The notes beneath the pieces were generated by a model. It was not told the origin of the DNA. It ran no database searches and saw nothing but the letters and a program-made list of their open reading frames with translations. The position numbers and the translations under genes are program-made. 5,080 nt of DNA from Candidatus Atribacteria bacterium 1244-E10-H5-B2 (GTDB lineage Bacteria; Atribacterota; JS1; SB-45; 34-128), in the NCBI GenBank assembly GCA_003575245.1, contig NMQN01000578.1:1-5080 (forward strand). The letters run 5' to 3'. Below are positions 248-5,080 of this stretch, piece by piece; within the stretch, counting starts at the first letter, position 1; each line of letters begins with the position of its first letter.

Positions 248-275
248 ATCTTGCATTGTATTTAAACCAAAAACC
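248..275. repeat. Short 7-nt-phased tract after the first gene
   Basis: Four consecutive 7-nt words start 11 nt after the stop codon: ATCTTGC, ATTGTAT, TTAAACC, AAAAACC. Only the first matches a word family seen elsewhere in the window (338, 3891, 3898, 4092), so this is a weak, decayed example. It leads into the ACCGGT palindrome at 273-278. Confidence 0.4.
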
Positions 276-298
276 GGTTTTTATCTTATCATAATCTT

Positions 299-329
299 AA
301 CTGTAAACTGAAAACTGTAAACTGAAAAC
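299..329. repeat. Heptamer array, AACTGTA/AACTGAA alternating
   Basis: Four perfect 7-nt units alternate AACTGTA and AACTGAA, followed by a partial AAC, so the larger unit is 14 nt. Each unit contributes a TGA or TAA, and because 7 is not a multiple of 3 the array places stops in all three forward frames (304, 309, 318, 323). It is non-coding and lies in the leader upstream of the four-helix-bundle gene. Confidence 0.9.
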
Positions 330-337
330 GATTTTAC

Positions 338-386
338 ATCTTGCATTTTGCAACTGAAAACTGTAAACTGAAAACTGTAAACCGGT
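338..386. repeat. Mixed heptamer array immediately upstream of the four-helix-bundle gene
   Basis: Seven units in unbroken 7-nt phase: ATCTTGC, ATTTTGC, then AACTGAA and AACTGTA alternating twice, then AACCGGT. Two word families (ATCTTGC-like and AACTGWA-like) are fused with no phase slip. The last unit forms part of the perfect palindrome CGGTCGACCG (383-392), and the Shine-Dalgarno follows within 10 nt. A TTG-initiated reading frame runs through the array into the downstream gene but would translate only repeat sequence. Confidence 0.9.
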
Positions 387-392
387 CGACCG

Positions 393-399
393 AAGGAAG
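393..399 (+). promoter_or_regulatory. Ribosome binding site deciding the start at 407
   Basis: AAGGAAG lies 7 nt before ATG 407. It decides against the longer frame starting at 341, whose extra 22 residues would all be repeat-derived. The same sequence context (GGTCGACCGAAGG) carries the ribosome binding site of the ligase gene. Confidence 0.75.
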
Positions 400-406
400 T
401 CTTAAG

Positions 407-775
407 ATGTCCGATTATAAAAAACTAAAAGTGTGGGAAGATGCACACAAATTCACTATTGATATTTATAATATTACTAAAAAATTTCCAAATAATGAGC
501 AATACGGATTAGTTTCCCAAATAAGAAGATCTTCATCATCTATTCCTACAAATATTGTTGAAGGCTGTGGACAGCTTAATAATGGTAATCTAATTAGATT
601 TTTAGGTATTGCCAAGGGTTTAGCATTTGAAGTAGAATATCAATTACTTTTAGCTAAAGATTTGAGTTACGTAACAGACGCTGAATATAATACTTTAGTT
701 GAAAAAATTAAATATATCATTCGTAGATTAAATAATCTAATTAAATCTCTAAAAAACTGTAAACTAGAAAACTGA
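407..775 (+). CDS. Four-helix-bundle protein, S23 / 23S rRNA intervening-sequence protein (IVP) family
   Basis: This 122-residue protein has the full family signature: an N-terminal YKKLKVWEDAHKF (the L-x-VW-x-x-A-H motif), a KKFPNNEQYGLVSQIRRSS segment, then SIPTNIVEG, and a helical C-terminal half containing FLGIAKGLAFEVEYQL. Family members (TIGR02436 type) are about 115-130 residues long, fold as four-helix bundles forming pentamers, and were first found inside intervening sequences of bacterial 23S rRNA; most, like this one, are stand-alone genes of unknown function, with nucleic-acid binding suspected. Start chosen at ATG 407 because of the AAGGAAG ribosome binding site and because the family motif begins five residues in. 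Its last six codons (NCKLEN) and stop are supplied by an AACTGWA-type repeat array, and directly repeated leaders flank it, which suggests it moved as a unit. It has no obvious role in polysaccharide synthesis. Confidence 0.9.
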   Translation: MSDYKKLKVWEDAHKFTIDIYNITKKFPNNEQYGLVSQIRRSSSSIPTNIVEGCGQLNNGNLIRFLGIAKGLAFEVEYQLLLAKDLSYVTDAEYNTLVEKIKYIIRRLNNLIKSLKNCKLEN

Positions 776-783
776 AAACCGGT
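755..783. repeat. Heptamer array overlapping the 3' end of the four-helix-bundle gene
   Basis: Units AACTGTA, AACTAGAA (8 nt, one base longer), AACTGAA and AACCGGT run across the end of the coding region. The TGA stop at 773-775 is the TGA inside the AACTGAA unit, so the repeat encodes the protein's last residues and terminates it. Confidence 0.8.
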
Positions 784-856
784 TTTTATCTCATCTCATC
801 TTAATCTTAACTGAAAACTGAAAACTGTAAACTGAAAACTGGTCGACCGAAGGGAG
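775..856. repeat. Right direct repeat flanking the four-helix-bundle gene (leader copy 2)
   Basis: Counterpart of 270-399 (the shared blocks are described there). Between the 16-nt block and TAATCTTAACTG this copy has 11 nt where the left copy has 6, in a run of ATC-containing words. It forms the entire leader of the ligase gene. Together the two copies bracket bases 400-774, essentially the four-helix-bundle coding region. Confidence 0.75.
809..843. repeat. Heptamer array upstream of the ligase gene
   Basis: Five perfect 7-nt units: AACTGAA twice, AACTGTA, AACTGAA, AACTGGT. The last unit corresponds to AACCGGT at 380-386 and runs into the conserved CGACCGAAGG that carries the ribosome binding site. 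Confidence 0.9.
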
Positions 857-860
857 ACCA
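840..860 (+). promoter_or_regulatory. Ribosome binding site of the ligase gene inside a possible small hairpin
   Basis: AAGGGAG (850-856) lies 8 nt before TTG 865 and supports that rare start; no ATG with a comparable site lies nearby. TGGTC (840-844) can pair with GACCA (856-860), leaving most of the Shine-Dalgarno in an 11-nt loop, while GGTCGACC (841-848) is itself a palindrome. The binding site is convincing. A regulatory role for the short 5-bp stem is speculative, since the homologous leader at 380-406 lacks the GACCA half. Confidence 0.5.
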
Positions 861-864
861 TCCC

Positions 865-2925
865 TTGTCACGAAAAAAAATAAATTTATCTAATCATTCC
901 AGCTCTTTCTACACCAAAGCCATTGAAGCAACCATCATTGGTCTGATTATTTTAGTGCCTATAATTGTTCACCCTCGTTGTATATCTGTATTTGGCCCTG
1001 CCAAAGAGTTTACTTTTGAAGCTCTAGTAATTATCGGTTTGATGTTCTGGGTGCTTAAAATGGTAAACAGGGAAGAAATTAAATTTACCCCTACAGCCCT
1101 CAACTTTCCTGTTATAAGCTTTATTGCTATTTGCGCCTTCTCTCTAATTTGGTCTAATAGTTTTTTTGTTAGTTTAAAAGAATTACCACTTTTTTTAGCC
1201 GGACCATTACTTTATTTTATAATTGTAAATAATATAAGAGGCGAAAAACAAATTAACCGCATCATTGAGACAGTAGTTCTCATAGGAGCGGCATTGGGCA
1301 TATACGGTATTTTCCAGTATAATGGTATAGATTTTTCCTTTTGGAAGGGAAATGTAGGCGGACTAAAGGTCTTTGGCCTTTTCGGTAATGAAGGCTATTT
1401 TGCCGGATACTTAACTCTTCCCCTTTCTCTTACTATCTCCTTATTTTTTGCAAGCAAGAATAGGAATAGAAAGATACTGTTCTTGATTGGAATCTTGGCT
1501 ATGGGAACCACCATTATACTAACCTTTACCCGCTCGTCCTACCCGGCACTTAGTGTTTCATTAATCTTTATGTTCCTTCTCTTCCTCTTAGTAAGAGGGA
1601 AAGAATTTATCAAAGAAAATAAAAAAATCTTTATTTTACTATTAATTGTAATTATCTTGGCCGTTTCCATATTTATTATTCCTACCCCTTTAAGTAAGAC
1701 AGGCACTGTTATTTCACGAATTAAAGAAGGAGTTTCAGTAACCCAACTAATAAACATATTTTCTTATGGCAGAAGGGCGGCTATCTGGAAATTTACCGGG
1801 ATGATGATTAAAGACCATCCCATCATTGGCTCAGGAATCGGAACCTTTAAATATAACGACTTAAGGTATCAGGCTAAATTCTTTGAACAGGGAGATAATC
1901 GCTCTATTTACCGCTATGGTCTTGCTGAACAAGCCCACAATGAATACCTGCAGCTCTGGGCCGAGTTAGGGACAATCGGCCTTGCCATATTTCTCTGGCT
2001 CATAATTGCTTATTTTAATTATGGGATAAGATATTTGAAAAGAGAAAAAGATGAGCAAAAGCAGGGGATAATGATTGGACTGATGGGGGCAGTGGTGGCA
2101 TTTTTAATTGACAGTTTTATTTGGTTTCCCCTGCATCTATCGGCTAATGTATCCTTATTATGGTTATTTATAGGACTTACTATGGTGATAGGTCTTGAAA
2201 AAAATGCAGGAAGTGCGAGCAAATCAAAAAGAGACAATATATATAAATTTAAACCGGTTTTATATATAGTAATTATTCTTTTGACTGCCTTTTTATGCAT
2301 AACCGTAGCGCGTCCTTTTATGGCATGTACTTATTGGTATTATGGTGACAGAGAAGTTTATAATCAAAACTATGGCAAAGCAATTAAAATGTACGAATCA
2401 GGTTTGAAATGGGATCCGTATTTGGGAGTTCTTTACTATAATTTAGGGACATTCTTTATGAGGCCTGACCTTTATGATACTGCACTAACAAATTTTGAGA
2501 AAAGCGCAAAATATTTTGATTACCATAGCTTACCGCAAAATTTAGCTACAATTTACCTTGCTAAAGGCGAACTGGATAAGGCAATTAATGAATTTAAACA
2601 AGCTATCTCCTATCAACGCAGAGAGGGAACAATGCCTCCCTTATATAGTGGCTTGGGGAATGCTTATTTGAAACTTGAAAGATATGAACCAGCAGAGGCA
2701 GCTTTTAAAAATGCTCTTAAAATAGACCCTAATCTTGTTATGGCTCACTATGGATTAGCCAATACTTACTTAAAGCAGAATAAAATCGAGGAAGCACTGG
2801 TAAAATTGAAAAAAGTAATCGAGCTTGCCCCGGATAGCGAAGAAGCAAAATATGCCCAAGACACTATACAAAAAATCAAACAGGCAAAATTAGAAGCTCA
2901 ACCGGCGGAAACCGACAGCCCGTAA
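865..2925 (+). CDS. O-antigen ligase/polymerase family (Wzy_C) membrane protein with C-terminal TPR domain
   Basis: This 686-residue protein has roughly a dozen hydrophobic segments between residues 20 and 485, then a soluble tail. The Wzy_C domain is recognised by TFTRSSYPAL around Arg223, a long loop with GRRAAIWKF (302-310), DHPIIGSGIGTFKYND (317-332) and AEQAHNEYLQLWAELG, in which His358 matches the conserved ligase histidine. WaaL/PglL/Wzy-type enzymes use undecaprenyl-linked glycan at the outer face of the inner membrane, transferring it to lipid A or protein or polymerising it; sequence alone does not say which applies here. Residues about 487-660 form some five TPR units (for example YSGLGNAYLKLERYEPAEAA), probably periplasmic and used for protein contact. 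TTG start chosen from the AAGGGAG site at 850-856 and the lack of a nearer ATG. The 3' end is rich in Glu, Ala and Pro (AQPAETDSP). A Wzz-type gene downstream supports a polysaccharide role. Confidence 0.9.
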   Translation: MSRKKINLSNHSSSFYTKAIEATIIGLIILVPIIVHPRCISVFGPAKEFTFEALVIIGLMFWVLKMVNREEIKFTPTALNFPVISFIAICAFSLIWSNSFFVSLKELPLFLAGPLLYFIIVNNIRGEKQINRIIETVVLIGAALGIYGIFQYNGIDFSFWKGNVGGLKVFGLFGNEGYFAGYLTLPLSLTISLFFASKNRNRKILFLIGILAMGTTIILTFTRSSYPALSVSLIFMFLLFLLVRGKEFIKENKKIFILLLIVIILAVSIFIIPTPLSKTGTVISRIKEGVSVTQLINIFSYGRRAAIWKFTGMMIKDHPIIGSGIGTFKYNDLRYQAKFFEQGDNRSIYRYGLAEQAHNEYLQLWAELGTIGLAIFLWLIIAYFNYGIRYLKREKDEQKQGIMIGLMGAVVAFLIDSFIWFPLHLSANVSLLWLFIGLTMVIGLEKNAGSASKSKRDNIYKFKPVLYIVIILLTAFLCITVARPFMACTYWYYGDREVYNQNYGKAIKMYESGLKWDPYLGVLYYNLGTFFMRPDLYDTALTNFEKSAKYFDYHSLPQNLATIYLAKGELDKAINEFKQAISYQRREGTMPPLYSGLGNAYLKLERYEPAEAAFKNALKIDPNLVMAHYGLANTYLKQNKIEEALVKLKKVIELAPDSEEAKYAQDTIQKIKQAKLEAQPAETDSP

Positions 2926-2941
2926 TAGTGGGAGGGAATTT

Positions 2942-2981
2942 GTTACCCGATTACCCAGTTAACCGGTTTATCAGTTAAAAT
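2942..2981. repeat. Octamer array GTTACCCN, 16 nt after the ligase stop codon
   Basis: Five units in 8-nt phase: GTTACCCG, ATTACCCA, GTTAACCG, GTTTATCA, GTTAAAAT. Identity to the consensus decays towards the 3' end. The same family at 3745 follows the next gene's stop codon. Confidence 0.8.
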
Positions 2982-2985
2982 ACAG

Positions 2986-3020
2986 GTTACAAGTTGCGAG
3001 TTACAAGTTTCAAGTTTCTA
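2986..3020. repeat. Heptamer array GTTNCAA
   Basis: Five units in 7-nt phase: GTTACAA, GTTGCGA, GTTACAA, GTTTCAA, GTTTCTA. It begins 4 nt after the octamer array and ends 7 nt before the MITE-like element. Confidence 0.85.
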
Positions 3021-3027
3021 AAGAAAG

Positions 3028-3084
3028 GTAGGGGCTCGATTCATCGAGCCCGCAAAACCCGGGTTGAATAAATTCGACCCCTAC
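3028..3084. mobile_element. 57-bp MITE/REP-like element with GTAGGGG terminal inverted repeats and two internal hairpins
   Basis: The element opens with GTAGGGG (3028-3034) and closes with its exact complement CCCCTAC (3078-3084). Inside are two hairpins: a perfect 8-bp stem GGGCTCGA/TCGAGCCC with loop TTCA (3032-3051), and an 8-bp stem GGGTTGAA/TTCGACCC with one G-T pair and loop TAAA (3061-3080). Its GC content is well above the surroundings. Short elements with GTAGGGG ends and paired hairpins are widespread non-autonomous repeats in bacterial genomes. I see no clear target-site duplication and no transposase in the window. The hairpins could attenuate transcription between ligase and lipoprotein, but no U-run follows, so it is not called a terminator. 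Confidence 0.7.
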
Positions 3085-3110
3085 ATTAAAAACAATGATT
3101 TATTCGAAAA

Positions 3111-3145
3111 AGTTTTGAGTTTTGAATTATAGCTTTTAGTTTTAA
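3111..3145. repeat. Degenerate heptamer array, AGTTTTG family
   Basis: Two perfect AGTTTTG units (3111-3124) are followed in 7-nt phase by AATTATA, GCTTTTA and GTTTTAA, then an AT-rich stretch. Degenerate but phased; low sequence complexity makes the later units uncertain. Confidence 0.55.
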
Positions 3146-3170
3146 TTTTTTAATTTATTGATTTATCCTC

Positions 3171-3219
3171 TACGCTGTACGCTTTACGCTATCTATATAC
3201 TAACGACTAATATAACTGG
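3171..3219. repeat. Mixed heptamer array leading into the lipoprotein gene's ribosome binding site
   Basis: Seven units in unbroken 7-nt phase: TACGCTG, TACGCTT, TACGCTA, TCTATAT, ACTAACG, ACTAATA, TAACTGG. Three word families are joined without a slip. The final GG merges into the G-run (3218-3222) that is the only Shine-Dalgarno-like sequence, ending 6 nt before ATG 3229. Confidence 0.85.
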
Positions 3220-3228
3220 GGGTTCCAG

Positions 3229-3741
3229 ATGTTTATAAAAAAACGTACGAAATTATTAAAAATAATAATTAGCCTATGCTTAGTTTTATTATTAGCAGGT
3301 TGTAATATTTGGGAAAGTATAACCACCGCAGCTGATAATGCCAAAATATTACAGATTGGCGAAAATATCGAGATAGCTCTCCAACAAAAAGATGTTAGCT
3401 TGTTTATGCAAAATATCTCATATTATTATTCTGATTCCGATGGTAATGATTTTAGTACTGTTGATAGTATAGCAGAGGAACTAATCTCTCAAGTGGAAGA
3501 AATCGAGGATTTAGGAGCGGATTCATTAATTAAAGATGTTGTAGTAAATGTAGGCATTACTAATCTTGTTTTAGCTGAATTATATGCTAATGGCGAAATG
3601 GAAATTAGTATTTCTATAAAGTATTTTAATTATATTCCGACATTTTGGCCTAACGATAATTATCCAAAAATCATTTTATTTAATGTTGATTTTCAAAAAA
3701 ATGGTTCTGAGTGGGAAATAACTTCTATGGAAGAAATATAA
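3229..3741 (+). CDS. Small lipoprotein of unknown function, possibly NTF2-like
   Basis: The product has 170 residues with a textbook lipoprotein signal: positively charged start (KKRTK, 4-8), hydrophobic core (12-22) and lipobox Leu-Ala-Gly-Cys at 22-25, so Cys25 should be acylated and the protein anchored in a membrane on the periplasmic side or the outer leaflet. The mature part begins with an amphipathic helix (ALQQKDVSLFMQNISYYY), then an acidic segment, then several amphipathic strands ending in GSEWEITSMEEI. Helix first, then strands closing on W-x-I, is reminiscent of NTF2/SnoaL-like domains; this is inference, not a recognised motif. It is a paralogue of the truncated gene at 1-236, the two lying on either side of the four-helix-bundle and ligase genes. 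Start ATG 3229 is set by the signal peptide and a GGGGG run 6 nt upstream. Function unknown. Confidence 0.85.
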   Translation: MFIKKRTKLLKIIISLCLVLLLAGCNIWESITTAADNAKILQIGENIEIALQQKDVSLFMQNISYYYSDSDGNDFSTVDSIAEELISQVEEIEDLGADSLIKDVVVNVGITNLVLAELYANGEMEISISIKYFNYIPTFWPNDNYPKIILFNVDFQKNGSEWEITSMEEI

Positions 3742-3744
3742 TTA

Positions 3745-3808
3745 GTTGTCCAGTTACCCGGAAGACCGGTTACCCCGTTACCCAGTTTGATAGGTAATTA
3801 GCTAACTA
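3745..3808. repeat. Octamer array GTTACCCN just after the lipoprotein stop codon
   Basis: Eight units in 8-nt phase start 3 nt after the TAA: GTTGTCCA, GTTACCCG, GAAGACCG, GTTACCCC, GTTACCCA, GTTTGATA, GGTAATTA, GCTAACTA. Units two, four and five are near identical; the last three are degenerate and drift towards the CTAACTA words seen further on. Confidence 0.8.
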
Positions 3809-3815
3809 AATAGCA

Positions 3816-3844
3816 AATCCCCTTCCAATCGAAGGGAGAGGATT
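3816..3844. other. Small hairpin between repeat arrays
   Basis: CCCTTC (3820-3825) pairs with GAAGGG (3831-3836) around a 5-nt loop, and outer AATCC (3816-3820) can pair alternatively with GGATT (3840-3844). The GATTAAGGCGGGAG tail and lack of a T-run argue against an intrinsic terminator. It may be the remnant of a dispersed palindromic repeat. It is one of the few parts of the 3742-4165 spacer that is not a phased array. Confidence 0.4.
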
Positions 3845-3865
3845 AAGGCGGGAGTTTTACTTAAT

Positions 3866-3953
3866 ACTATTCACTAACGACTAATTCGTTATCTTGCATC
3901 TTGCAGCTAAAAACTGTAAAATGAAAACTGTAAACTATAAATTGTCAACTAAT
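3866..3953. repeat. Compound heptamer array in the lipoprotein-Wzz spacer
   Basis: Three units ACTATTC, ACTAACG, ACTAATT (3866-3886) are followed, after a 4-nt phase break, by nine units in strict 7-nt phase (3891-3953): ATCTTGC twice, AGCTAAA, AACTGTA, AAATGAA, AACTGTA, AACTATA, AATTGTC, AACTAAT. The ATCTTGC-to-AACTGTA order repeats that at 338-386, so word order itself recurs between spacers. Confidence 0.85.
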
Positions 3954-3981
3954 TTTCTTTATCTAAAATTAATAACTCTAA

Positions 3982-4034
3982 ACTAACGACTAATTTAACT
4001 GGTAAATTGGCTAACCGGCGAACTGGAGAACTAA
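3982..4034. repeat. Heptamer-to-octamer transition array
   Basis: ACTAACG (3982-3988) is followed by ACTAAT and then five 8-nt units (3995-4034): TTAACTGG, TAAATTGG, CTAACCGG, CGAACTGG, AGAACTAA. The AACTGG core resembles the AACTGGT unit of the 7-nt arrays, suggesting 7- and 8-nt families interconvert by a one-base change of unit length. Confidence 0.75.
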
Positions 4035-4057
4035 ATCGACTAATCTTTGTCCTGATC

Positions 4058-4081
4058 TTAACCAGTTAACTGGCTAACTAA
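4058..4081. repeat. Octamer triplet with a 12-bp perfect palindrome
   Basis: Three 8-nt units, TTAACCAG, TTAACTGG and CTAACTAA. Across the first two lies the perfect palindrome CCAGTTAACTGG (4062-4073), about 93 nt before the Wzz start. It could be an operator, but is more simply explained by two repeat words meeting. Confidence 0.6.
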
Positions 4082-4084
4082 TTT

Positions 4085-4147
4085 ATCTTGTATCTTGCAA
4101 CTTGTATCTCATGCTAACGACTATTCACTATTCACTAACGACTAAAT
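4085..4147. repeat. Nine-unit mixed heptamer array directly upstream of the Wzz-family gene
   Basis: Unbroken 7-nt phase over 63 nt: ATCTTGT, ATCTTGC, AACTTGT, ATCTCAT, GCTAACG, ACTATTC twice, ACTAACG, ACTAAAT. The ATCTTGC family passes to the ACTAACG family with no slip. It ends 4 nt before the GGAGG ribosome binding site at 4152-4156. Confidence 0.9.
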
Positions 4148-4151
4148 AATT

Positions 4152-4156
4152 GGAGG
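4152..4156 (+). promoter_or_regulatory. Strong ribosome binding site of the Wzz-family gene
   Basis: Consensus GGAGG lies 9 nt before ATG 4166, separated by an AT-only spacer. It is the strongest Shine-Dalgarno in the window and fixes the start. Confidence 0.85.
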
Positions 4157-4165
4157 TTTTTTTAA

Positions 4166-5080
4166 ATGACAGAAATACAAGAAGAAGAAATTGATTTGCG
4201 CGAGTATATCAATGTGCTCTTAAAAAGAAAAGGTATTATTATCTTAATTTTTTTAATCGCGGTTATTACCGCCGCTATCGTAAGTTATTTTGTTTTACAA
4301 CCTGTTTATGAAGTAGATGTAGTTATAACAGTTTCAGAACCTAAGATTAAAAATTCACTTGTAGACGAAATTTCTTTAGAAGACTATAAAAACTTAATTA
4401 AAGATATTGAAATTGAAGAAGAACTAATACGAAAATTAAATTTAGATAAATCACCCCTTGAAGCAACTCCTTACGATTTAGAAAAAATGATTACTATAGA
4501 ACTACCAAAAGACACTAACCTTATAAAAATGAATTTACAGGCTTCCAATCCAAAATTAACCAAAGACATAATTAACACCTGGGCCACTTTATTTGTAGAT
4601 AAGAACAAAAGAGTATATTTTGATGAAGTAAAAAAAGCTAAAATTAGTGTCGAAGGTAGATTAAAACATGTTGAAAAGGATTTTTATGAAATTGAGGAGA
4701 AATTATTGAAATTTAATGAAACTGATAATGTGAAAACAATAGAAGATGAAATTAAATACAAAACAACAAAAATATTAGACTTTAAACCAAGGTTAATTGA
4801 TATTCAATTATCTTTAGAAAAAGAAAAGGCAGGAAAAGAATATATTACTACTGCAATAAATAAACAGGAAAAAATATTAAAATTAAATAAATCGGTAGTT
4901 GACGATCAATTTTTCCGACAATTACTGTCCAACATTACAGATGATAATCTCGAAATTGCTAATTTGACCTATGTTAGTGAAGAAATAAACCCAATTTATT
5001 ATAATTTAGCTCAACAGTTAATTTCTACAAATATTTCAATTAGTTCTTTAAAGGCAGAAGAGAATCAATTAACACAAAAT
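4166..5080 (+). CDS. Wzz-family polysaccharide chain-length determinant / co-polymerase, N-terminal 305 residues (3' end outside window)
   Basis: The frame is open from ATG 4166 to the last base. The N-terminus shows the Wzz signature: acidic cytoplasmic start, EIDLREYINVLLKRK (8-22), transmembrane helix at about 24-44, then PVYEVDVVITV (46-56). Residues from about 146 to 240 are rich in Lys and Glu and predicted helical, as in the periplasmic coiled-coil domain of this family. Such proteins are inner-membrane oligomers that set the modal length of O-antigen, capsule or exopolysaccharide, either with a Wzy polymerase or, when fused to or paired with a tyrosine kinase, in the Wza-Wzc export pathway. 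The C-terminal membrane helix and any kinase domain lie beyond the window, so class I (short Wzz) and Wzc-like forms cannot be separated. The ligase/polymerase upstream fits a Wzy-dependent locus. Codon use is as AT-rich as in the neighbours. Confidence 0.88.
   Translation, partial: MTEIQEEEIDLREYINVLLKRKGIIILIFLIAVITAAIVSYFVLQPVYEVDVVITVSEPKIKNSLVDEISLEDYKNLIKDIEIEEELIRKLNLDKSPLEATPYDLEKMITIELPKDTNLIKMNLQASNPKLTKDIINTWATLFVDKNKRVYFDEVKKAKISVEGRLKHVEKDFYEIEEKLLKFNETDNVKTIEDEIKYKTTKILDFKPRLIDIQLSLEKEKAGKEYITTAINKQEKILKLNKSVVDDQFFRQLLSNITDDNLEIANLTYVSEEINPIYYNLAQQLISTNISISSLKAEENQLTQN

Follow-up and report, generated by a model that had tools for sequence, protein, structure and literature searches.

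Why is the non-coding DNA of a bacterial locus built from short tandem words that keep their length while their letters change? The question is raised by a stretch of 5,080 nucleotides from Candidatus Atribacteria bacterium 1244-E10-H5-B2 (contig NMQN01000578.1), here called the window. Its four spacers (237-406, 776-864, 2926-3228 and 3742-4165) were measured against 300 dinucleotide shuffles. Identity between bases seven positions apart (lag 7) was 0.426, versus 0.271 after shuffling (z 10.7), with further signals at lags 14 (z 5.2), 21 (z 3.7), 8 (z 3.4) and 16 (z 2.1). The coding DNA of the window had no lag-7 signal (z -1.3) and peaked at multiples of three only. Phasing at 7 and 8 nt in the spacers, as read in an initial annotation of this DNA, is therefore real.

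Between two of the arrays sits a gene for a 23S rRNA-intervening sequence protein (IVP; 407-775, plus strand), a four-helix bundle of family PF05635 (23S_rRNA_IVP; Pfam E 3.2e-36). Because AACTGAA/AACTGTA arrays flank it on both sides (299-329, identity 0.88; 809-843, identity 0.86), the flanks of IVP genes elsewhere were examined. From these flanks, we propose that the arrays are probably the terminal repeats, and elsewhere the dispersed remnants, of a small mobile cassette with IVP as its only gene.

Arrays beside IVP genes in four phyla

PF05635 was sought in four phyla, in genome sets each drawn around a record weakly matched by the window. Matches were present in 58 of 97 Omnitrophota, 48 of 99 Planctomycetota, 74 of 99 Bacteroidota and 50 of 98 Cyanobacteria genomes, "Cyanobacteria" being here the phylum of a Melainabacteria record. 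From the best-scoring matches, 30 loci per phylum were taken (120 in total). Lag-7 identity in the 100 nt beside IVP (5'/3') was 0.416/0.421 in Omnitrophota, 0.346/0.351 in Planctomycetota and 0.357/0.371 in Bacteroidota, and about 0.26 in these phyla at 600-1400 nt. In Cyanobacteria it was 0.376/0.418, versus 0.267/0.257 at a distance.

A strong lag-7 array lay within about 110 nt of IVP at 62 of the 120 loci (24, 15, 10 and 13 of 30, in the above order of phyla), compared with 1 of 109 distant controls (1/26, 0/25, 0/30 and 0/28). Lag-8 arrays were near IVP at 20 loci (1, 2, 6 and 11); lags 6 (0, 1, 1, 0) and 9 (0, 2, 0, 0) gave two loci each. The main period is therefore 7 and the second 8, as in the window. 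Since the 120 loci were the best-scoring ones, 20 low-scoring Omnitrophota loci were added. Ten of these had a lag-7 array near the gene, none far from it, and two had a lag-8 array near.

Genes of the Y1 transposase family (Y1_Tnp) served as a comparison in the same Omnitrophota genomes. Their loci held one lag-7 array in 91 kb, about 660 nt off the gene (L189), versus 40 arrays in 96 kb at the 30 IVP loci. A Y1 transposase as a partner of IVP was considered and rejected: co-occurrence was weak (51/58 versus 27/39 genomes, p 0.036), and no arrays were found at Y1 genes. None of the window proteins matched a Y1 transposase in Pfam.

The orientation of the flanks was tested by comparing the 5' flank with the reverse complement of the 3' flank. 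The threshold was the 95th percentile of mismatched pairs; these span different genomes, so that within-genome composition is controlled by the far pairs only. An inverted match was found at 89 of the 120 loci, where about 6 were expected (27 in Omnitrophota, 21 in Planctomycetota, 19 in Bacteroidota and 22 in Cyanobacteria, per 30, with 1.5 expected each). Direct matches exceeded their own threshold at 17 loci (3, 5, 6 and 3). Far pairs from Omnitrophota, Planctomycetota and Bacteroidota gave 0/26, 1/25 and 0/30 inverted matches, and the low-scoring Omnitrophota set gave 10/20. The words varied between loci and agreed within a locus; at L065, an exact run of 30 bases was matched.

The kinship of the words was tested on 8,515 pairs among 131 loci, after removal of 44 possibly orthologous pairs. 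Flank words were shared by 47 of 4190 pairs (1.1%) with IVP identity below 40%, 57 of 3324 at 40-50%, 42 of 884 (4.8%) at 50-60%, 12 of 66 (18.2%) at 60-70%, and 5 of 7 at 70% or more. The near-versus-far control gave 2, 4, 3, 0 and 0 pairs in the same bins. In this comparison of sequences, flank words track IVP relatedness. Conserved untranslated parts of the cassette other than the arrays may also lie within the flanks.

Arrays were also counted in random stretches of Omnitrophota, Bacteroidota and Cyanobacteria genomes with and without a PF05635 match (IVP+ and IVP-). Summed, there were 40 arrays in 791 kb of IVP+ and 5 in 585 kb of IVP- genomes. The match between the two sets is imperfect, as IVP- stretches were mostly contig starts, some of them short, and IVP+ stretches lay mostly inside larger contigs; in draft genomes, moreover, zero matches does not prove absence. 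By phylum, the counts were 12 in 400 kb versus 0 in 244 kb (Omnitrophota), 3 in 191 kb versus 0 in 184 kb (Bacteroidota, one of the three adjoining an IVP gene) and 25 in 200 kb versus 5 in 157 kb (Cyanobacteria). An inverted partner above the 95th percentile within 300 nt was found for 10 of 45 solo arrays, with about 2 expected, and a direct one for 5.

Some observations on the words stand apart from these counts. Some words appeared to recur across phyla. AACTGAA and CTAACGA arrays also occur in high-G+C contigs of a viral collection (L007-L024, L035-L039), the same words in unrelated settings. L105, from an Omnitrophota genome without a PF05635 match, has an 8-nt array at 4586-4660 with CAGTTA/CCAGTT words like those of the window. 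Units tended to have five stable and two variable positions, an effect that was significant yet small (0.626 versus 0.574). A fit of five units per array to a five-membered ring was discarded, as the mode of 5 reflects the 35-nt detection floor.

Filled and empty sites in one cyanobacterial family

The locus L226 was searched in 50 genomes of its family. Seven aligned genomes, among them that of the query, had IVP at this first site; G423 and G426 lacked it there, with anchors 142 and 160 nt apart versus 465-535 nt at filled sites. G422 also lacked IVP, as judged from the gap between matches; its right anchor aligned weakly, and it stood outside the alignment. In six genomes, the same element (96-97% identical) occupied another, unrelated locus, here the second site. 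Similarity between first- and second-site copies stopped within the arrays on both sides. The second-site copies formed a clade (support 0.97) that lay within the first-site copies (support of neighbouring nodes 0.87 and 0.76). This nesting suggests copying from site one to site two. One element at different sites, and sites filled or empty, is what a mobile element would leave, and we infer that the cassette is mobile. The first-site IVP gene of G419 (L233) appears frameshifted, and the second-site copy of the same genome (L264) is open. A ratio of nonsynonymous to synonymous substitution rates (dN/dS) of 0.56 was set aside because the frameshifted copy distorted it.

The arrays themselves changed by whole units. 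At the first site, the left array had 4 to 11 CAGTT units, to which L234 adds four of CGGTT/TGGTT type, and the right array had 3 to 12 TACTG-type units. Nine of the ten right units of L233 read TTTACTG, a sign of homogenisation. Word-by-word turnover, one of the options raised in the initial annotation, is thus borne out by orthologous arrays that differ by whole 7-nt units, one of them nearly homogenised. The comparison of unit number between related genomes that had been advised gave changes in steps of seven in this family. The IVP-less alleles carried different words: L261, for example, has TATCAGT, TATCGGG and AGACAGG in phase, followed by a CCCCACA array, and L263 has an 8-nt CCCCACTT array. 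In L316, runs of CTCCTGA, AAACTGA and TAACTGA stand within one array. L261 and L316 show words joined in phase via intermediate units, as had been read in the window.

Changes in sevens are also what plain slippage would give. On that account, which the available text of PMC4679880 and PMC4692102 credits to Mrazek and colleagues for its polymerase part, 7-nt repeats arise in any tolerant spacer from the length of template contacted by the replicative polymerase, and IVP merely resides there. It would suit the solo arrays found far from IVP genes and the predominance of heptamers among the long simple repeats of many genomes (PMC4679880, available text). However, it predicts neither inverted arrays of the same words around one gene family (89/120) nor words that follow the IVP lineage, nor that arrays are lacking at Y1_Tnp genes and rare in IVP- genomes. 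We consider it unlikely.

The arrays, which also occur in the IVP-less alleles, could instead be landing sites, present first and later entered by IVP genes, rather than cassette ends. The direct flanks of the window and the 17 direct matches above threshold would agree with this. One-way insertion into an array would yield direct flanks, whereas 89 of 120 loci were inverted, and this order of events is quite improbable.

Solo arrays, remaining alternatives and mechanism

The initial annotation had placed arrays at gene starts and offered tuning of expression there as one explanation. By reading, this placement stands for four window genes, but arrays also reach stop codons. In the other genomes, where open reading frames (ORFs) were called mechanically, an array boundary lay within 30 nt of an ORF on the start side in 12 of 35 cases and on the stop side in 17 of 45, and 8 of the 45 solo arrays had their midpoint within a predicted ORF of at least 100 aa. 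With starts not preferred over stops in these genomes, the arrays seem to occupy spacers in general, and tuning at gene starts gains no support. Ten cyanobacterial stretches picked for TAACTGA arrays were inspected by eye. L271, L272 and L275 have arrays that begin at a stop codon, and L276 and L278 have arrays that end at ATG. The available text of PMC4679880 proposes for TAACTGA repeats a regulatory role at gene starts, through binding of S1, cold-shock or Csr proteins. Such sites would suit L276 and L278, and in the genome of that paper most repeat sets immediately precede start codons. They are nonetheless very unlikely to explain the arrays, given words that are not conserved, the arrays that begin at stop codons and the lack of a start preference among the 45.

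Least probable is a reverse transcriptase that acts in trans with an Avd-like IVP to make and spread arrays: PF05635 resembles Avd of diversity-generating retroelements (PMC10053308, available text) and the window IVP has a weak bAvd match in Pfam, but RVT_1 was present in 14 of 58 IVP+ versus 8 of 39 IVP- Omnitrophota genomes and had no match in G088 (12 IVP matches) or G058 (9), so that by co-occurrence a reverse transcriptase is not required.

On the proposal of a mobile cassette, the typical unit would be an IVP gene bounded by two inverted arrays of 7-nt, less often 8-nt, words. The words would differ among cassettes, be alike at both ends of a given cassette and track the IVP lineage. 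Arrays would gain, lose and homogenise whole units, probably via slippage or template switching between units and arms, and the period would thereby be kept while the word drifts. Solo arrays in spacers, most of those in the window included, would have been left behind or seeded by cassettes; they would adjoin gene starts because arrays fill intergenic DNA. Recombination between arrays would also move cassettes.

The IVP protein may itself act, most likely in the form of a ring bound to the RNA of an array or to single-stranded DNA. Two relatives with solved structures, 2gsc and 2rld, have five chains each. By name, 2gsc is the Xanthomonas protein XCC0516. These chain counts are in line with the five-membered ring of Avd. 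If each subunit of such a ring took up a single 7-nt unit, the period would be accounted for, and TRAP, which reads spaced triplets, offers a parallel. A protein reading a 7-nt register, one of the options in the initial annotation, is possible, with IVP as the candidate. The IVP link itself had been missed there, and it explains more than the options then given.

Several points weigh against a mobile cassette. No strong lag-7 array was found at 58 of the 120 IVP loci, and no inverted match above threshold at 31. Most solo arrays, all but 10 of 45, are not inverted pairs, and all five arrays from IVP- Cyanobacteria came from two of ten genomes. The evidence that suggests mobility comes from one cyanobacterial family, where gain and loss are indistinguishable because the IVP-less alleles hold other arrays. 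We know of no recombinase for the cassette. In the window, the IVP flanks match directly (score 48.5, versus 13 inverted), as two plus-strand copies of a module, 264-329 and 769-839, each ending in an AACTGWA array. A contig scan for relatives of the window gave six weak matches in other phyla. As the window flanks are direct and Atribacteria were sampled by the window alone, its arrays are assigned by analogy, and by that analogy its solo arrays would derive from IVP cassettes.

A wider proposal is more tentative. IVP genes with inverted heptamer arrays may form an unrecognised class of mobile elements without a transposase, spread across many phyla. Intervening sequences (IVS) in rRNA genes would be its rRNA-borne members, and repeats of the TAACTGA type and the short tandemly repeated repetitive (STRR) sequences its ends and relics. 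The IVP ring would set the period, each subunit reading one 7-nt unit of array RNA or of single-stranded DNA. If true, this would join puzzles now held apart, namely the abundance of 7-nt units among long simple repeats, the origin of TAACTGA, and the nature of IVP and IVS. The question would become testable via a protein family, its DNA substrate, and filled and empty sites in sequenced genomes.

The window and its place among known systems

Single arrays of the window were tested against the best stretch of random spacer in 400 draws. Nine of the ten arrays named in the initial annotation exceeded it (P at most 0.022). The tenth, 3171-3219, was as a whole not above chance (identity 0.50, P 0.278); it begins with three TACGCTN units (3171-3191) matching at 6/7. 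Apart from the two beside IVP, the 7-nt arrays lie at 338-386 (CTTGCAT-type, then AACTGWA words; identity 0.71), 2986-3020 (GTTACAA type, the reverse complement of CTTGTAA type; 0.79), 3891-3953 (ATCTTGC, then AACTGTA words; 0.66) and 4085-4147 (CTTGTAT, then CTAACGA/CTATTCA words; 0.61). The 8-nt arrays lie at 2942-2981 (0.62, P 0.022), 3745-3808 (AGTTACCC type; 0.59, P 0.000 in 400 draws) and 3995-4034 (AACTGG type; 0.66, P 0.003). GTTACAA (2986-3020) and CTTGCAA/CTTGTAT (4085-4110) lie on opposite strands, agree at 18 of 20 positions and thus form a single family.

The window by itself does not establish the joining of distinct word families in phase that is seen in L261 and L316. Units on either side of a join matched at 2 of 7 positions in 338-386, at 1, 3 and 0 in 3171-3219, at 3 in 3891-3953, and at 0 and 3 in 4085-4147. 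This is about chance level, so that the phase across joins depends on how the units are read. At 749-775, the array reaches into IVP at its 3' end, where it encodes the final residues (tail NCKLEN). A palindrome-rich stretch of about 57 nt, GTAGGGG...CCCCTAC (3028-3084), contains a perfect inner hairpin (3032-3051) and looks like a further small dispersed element adjoining the arrays.

The IVP gene lies between protein genes, not inside a 23S or 16S rRNA gene. Its neighbours are the end of a small ORF (3-236), a Wzy_C and TPR gene (865-2925, Pfam), a gene for a 170-aa protein (3229-3741) without a Pfam match, judged lipoprotein-like from its N-terminal start, and the start of a Wzz gene (4166 to the end, Pfam). 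By eye, the small proteins of 3-236 and 3229-3741 have similar C-termini (IKEDDDWKIISLTEI and QKNGSEWEITSMEEI); they are perhaps paralogues that flank the IVP and Wzy genes. A relative of the window IVP (P0122) is 99% identical and a homologue of its Wzy (P0019) 81%; both have the source lgn and are perhaps on one contig.

Among known systems, repetitive extragenic palindromes (REP) and their associated tyrosine transposases (RAYT) are similar in that inverted repeats enclose a gene for a small protein and cognate repeats are dispersed over the spacers. They differ in the protein, as IVP is not a Y1 transposase, and Y1_Tnp genes in the same Omnitrophota genomes had no adjoining 7-nt arrays. 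Diversity-generating retroelements share a protein that resembles IVP, namely Avd (PMC10053308, available text), but none of the five window proteins matched a reverse transcriptase in Pfam, and no association of one with IVP was seen in Omnitrophota.

Cyanobacterial heptameric repeats had been named as the nearest analogue, and this gains weight from TAACTGA words that flank the cyanobacterial IVP genes L225 and L226. TAACTGA (Beggiatoaceae, Cyanobacteria, Bacteroidetes) and STRR are 7-nt spacer units, and the window likewise has tandem intergenic units. They have one favoured word per genome, whereas several words plus 8-nt arrays occur here within 5 kb, mixed and with no single one favoured. 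The available text of PMC4679880 describes TAACTGA repeats in spacers, with variable number and related split units and with no evident mechanism of transfer; it reports no link to IVP, and contains neither "S23" nor "intervening". A paper linking heptamer arrays at large to IVP was not found in the open-access literature searched, a scope outside which most subscription journals and preprints lie. Xanthomonas and Nostoc have G-rich heptamers, GGGAATC and GGGGAYT respectively, that were studied as quadruplexes (PMC4692102, available text) and are likewise heterogeneous 7-nt units in spacers with strain-variable number.

The rRNA-borne IVS differs from the cassette in setting and in arrays: it sits in rRNA, whereas the window cassette lies between protein genes, has longer arrays and is accompanied by solo arrays spread across the genome. 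The window has the IVP/S23p ORF, but neither an rRNA insertion nor the terminal inverted repeats found at 89 of the 120 other loci. The available text of PMC4990558 describes an rRNA-borne IVS of 428 nt with an S23p ORF and an inverted-repeat stem. Ahead of the S23p start it has two or three heptameric repeats, which vary from strain to strain. An IVS of about 430 nt and the cassette are thus alike in their protein family, in their inverted-repeat ends and in strain-variable heptamers before the ORF.

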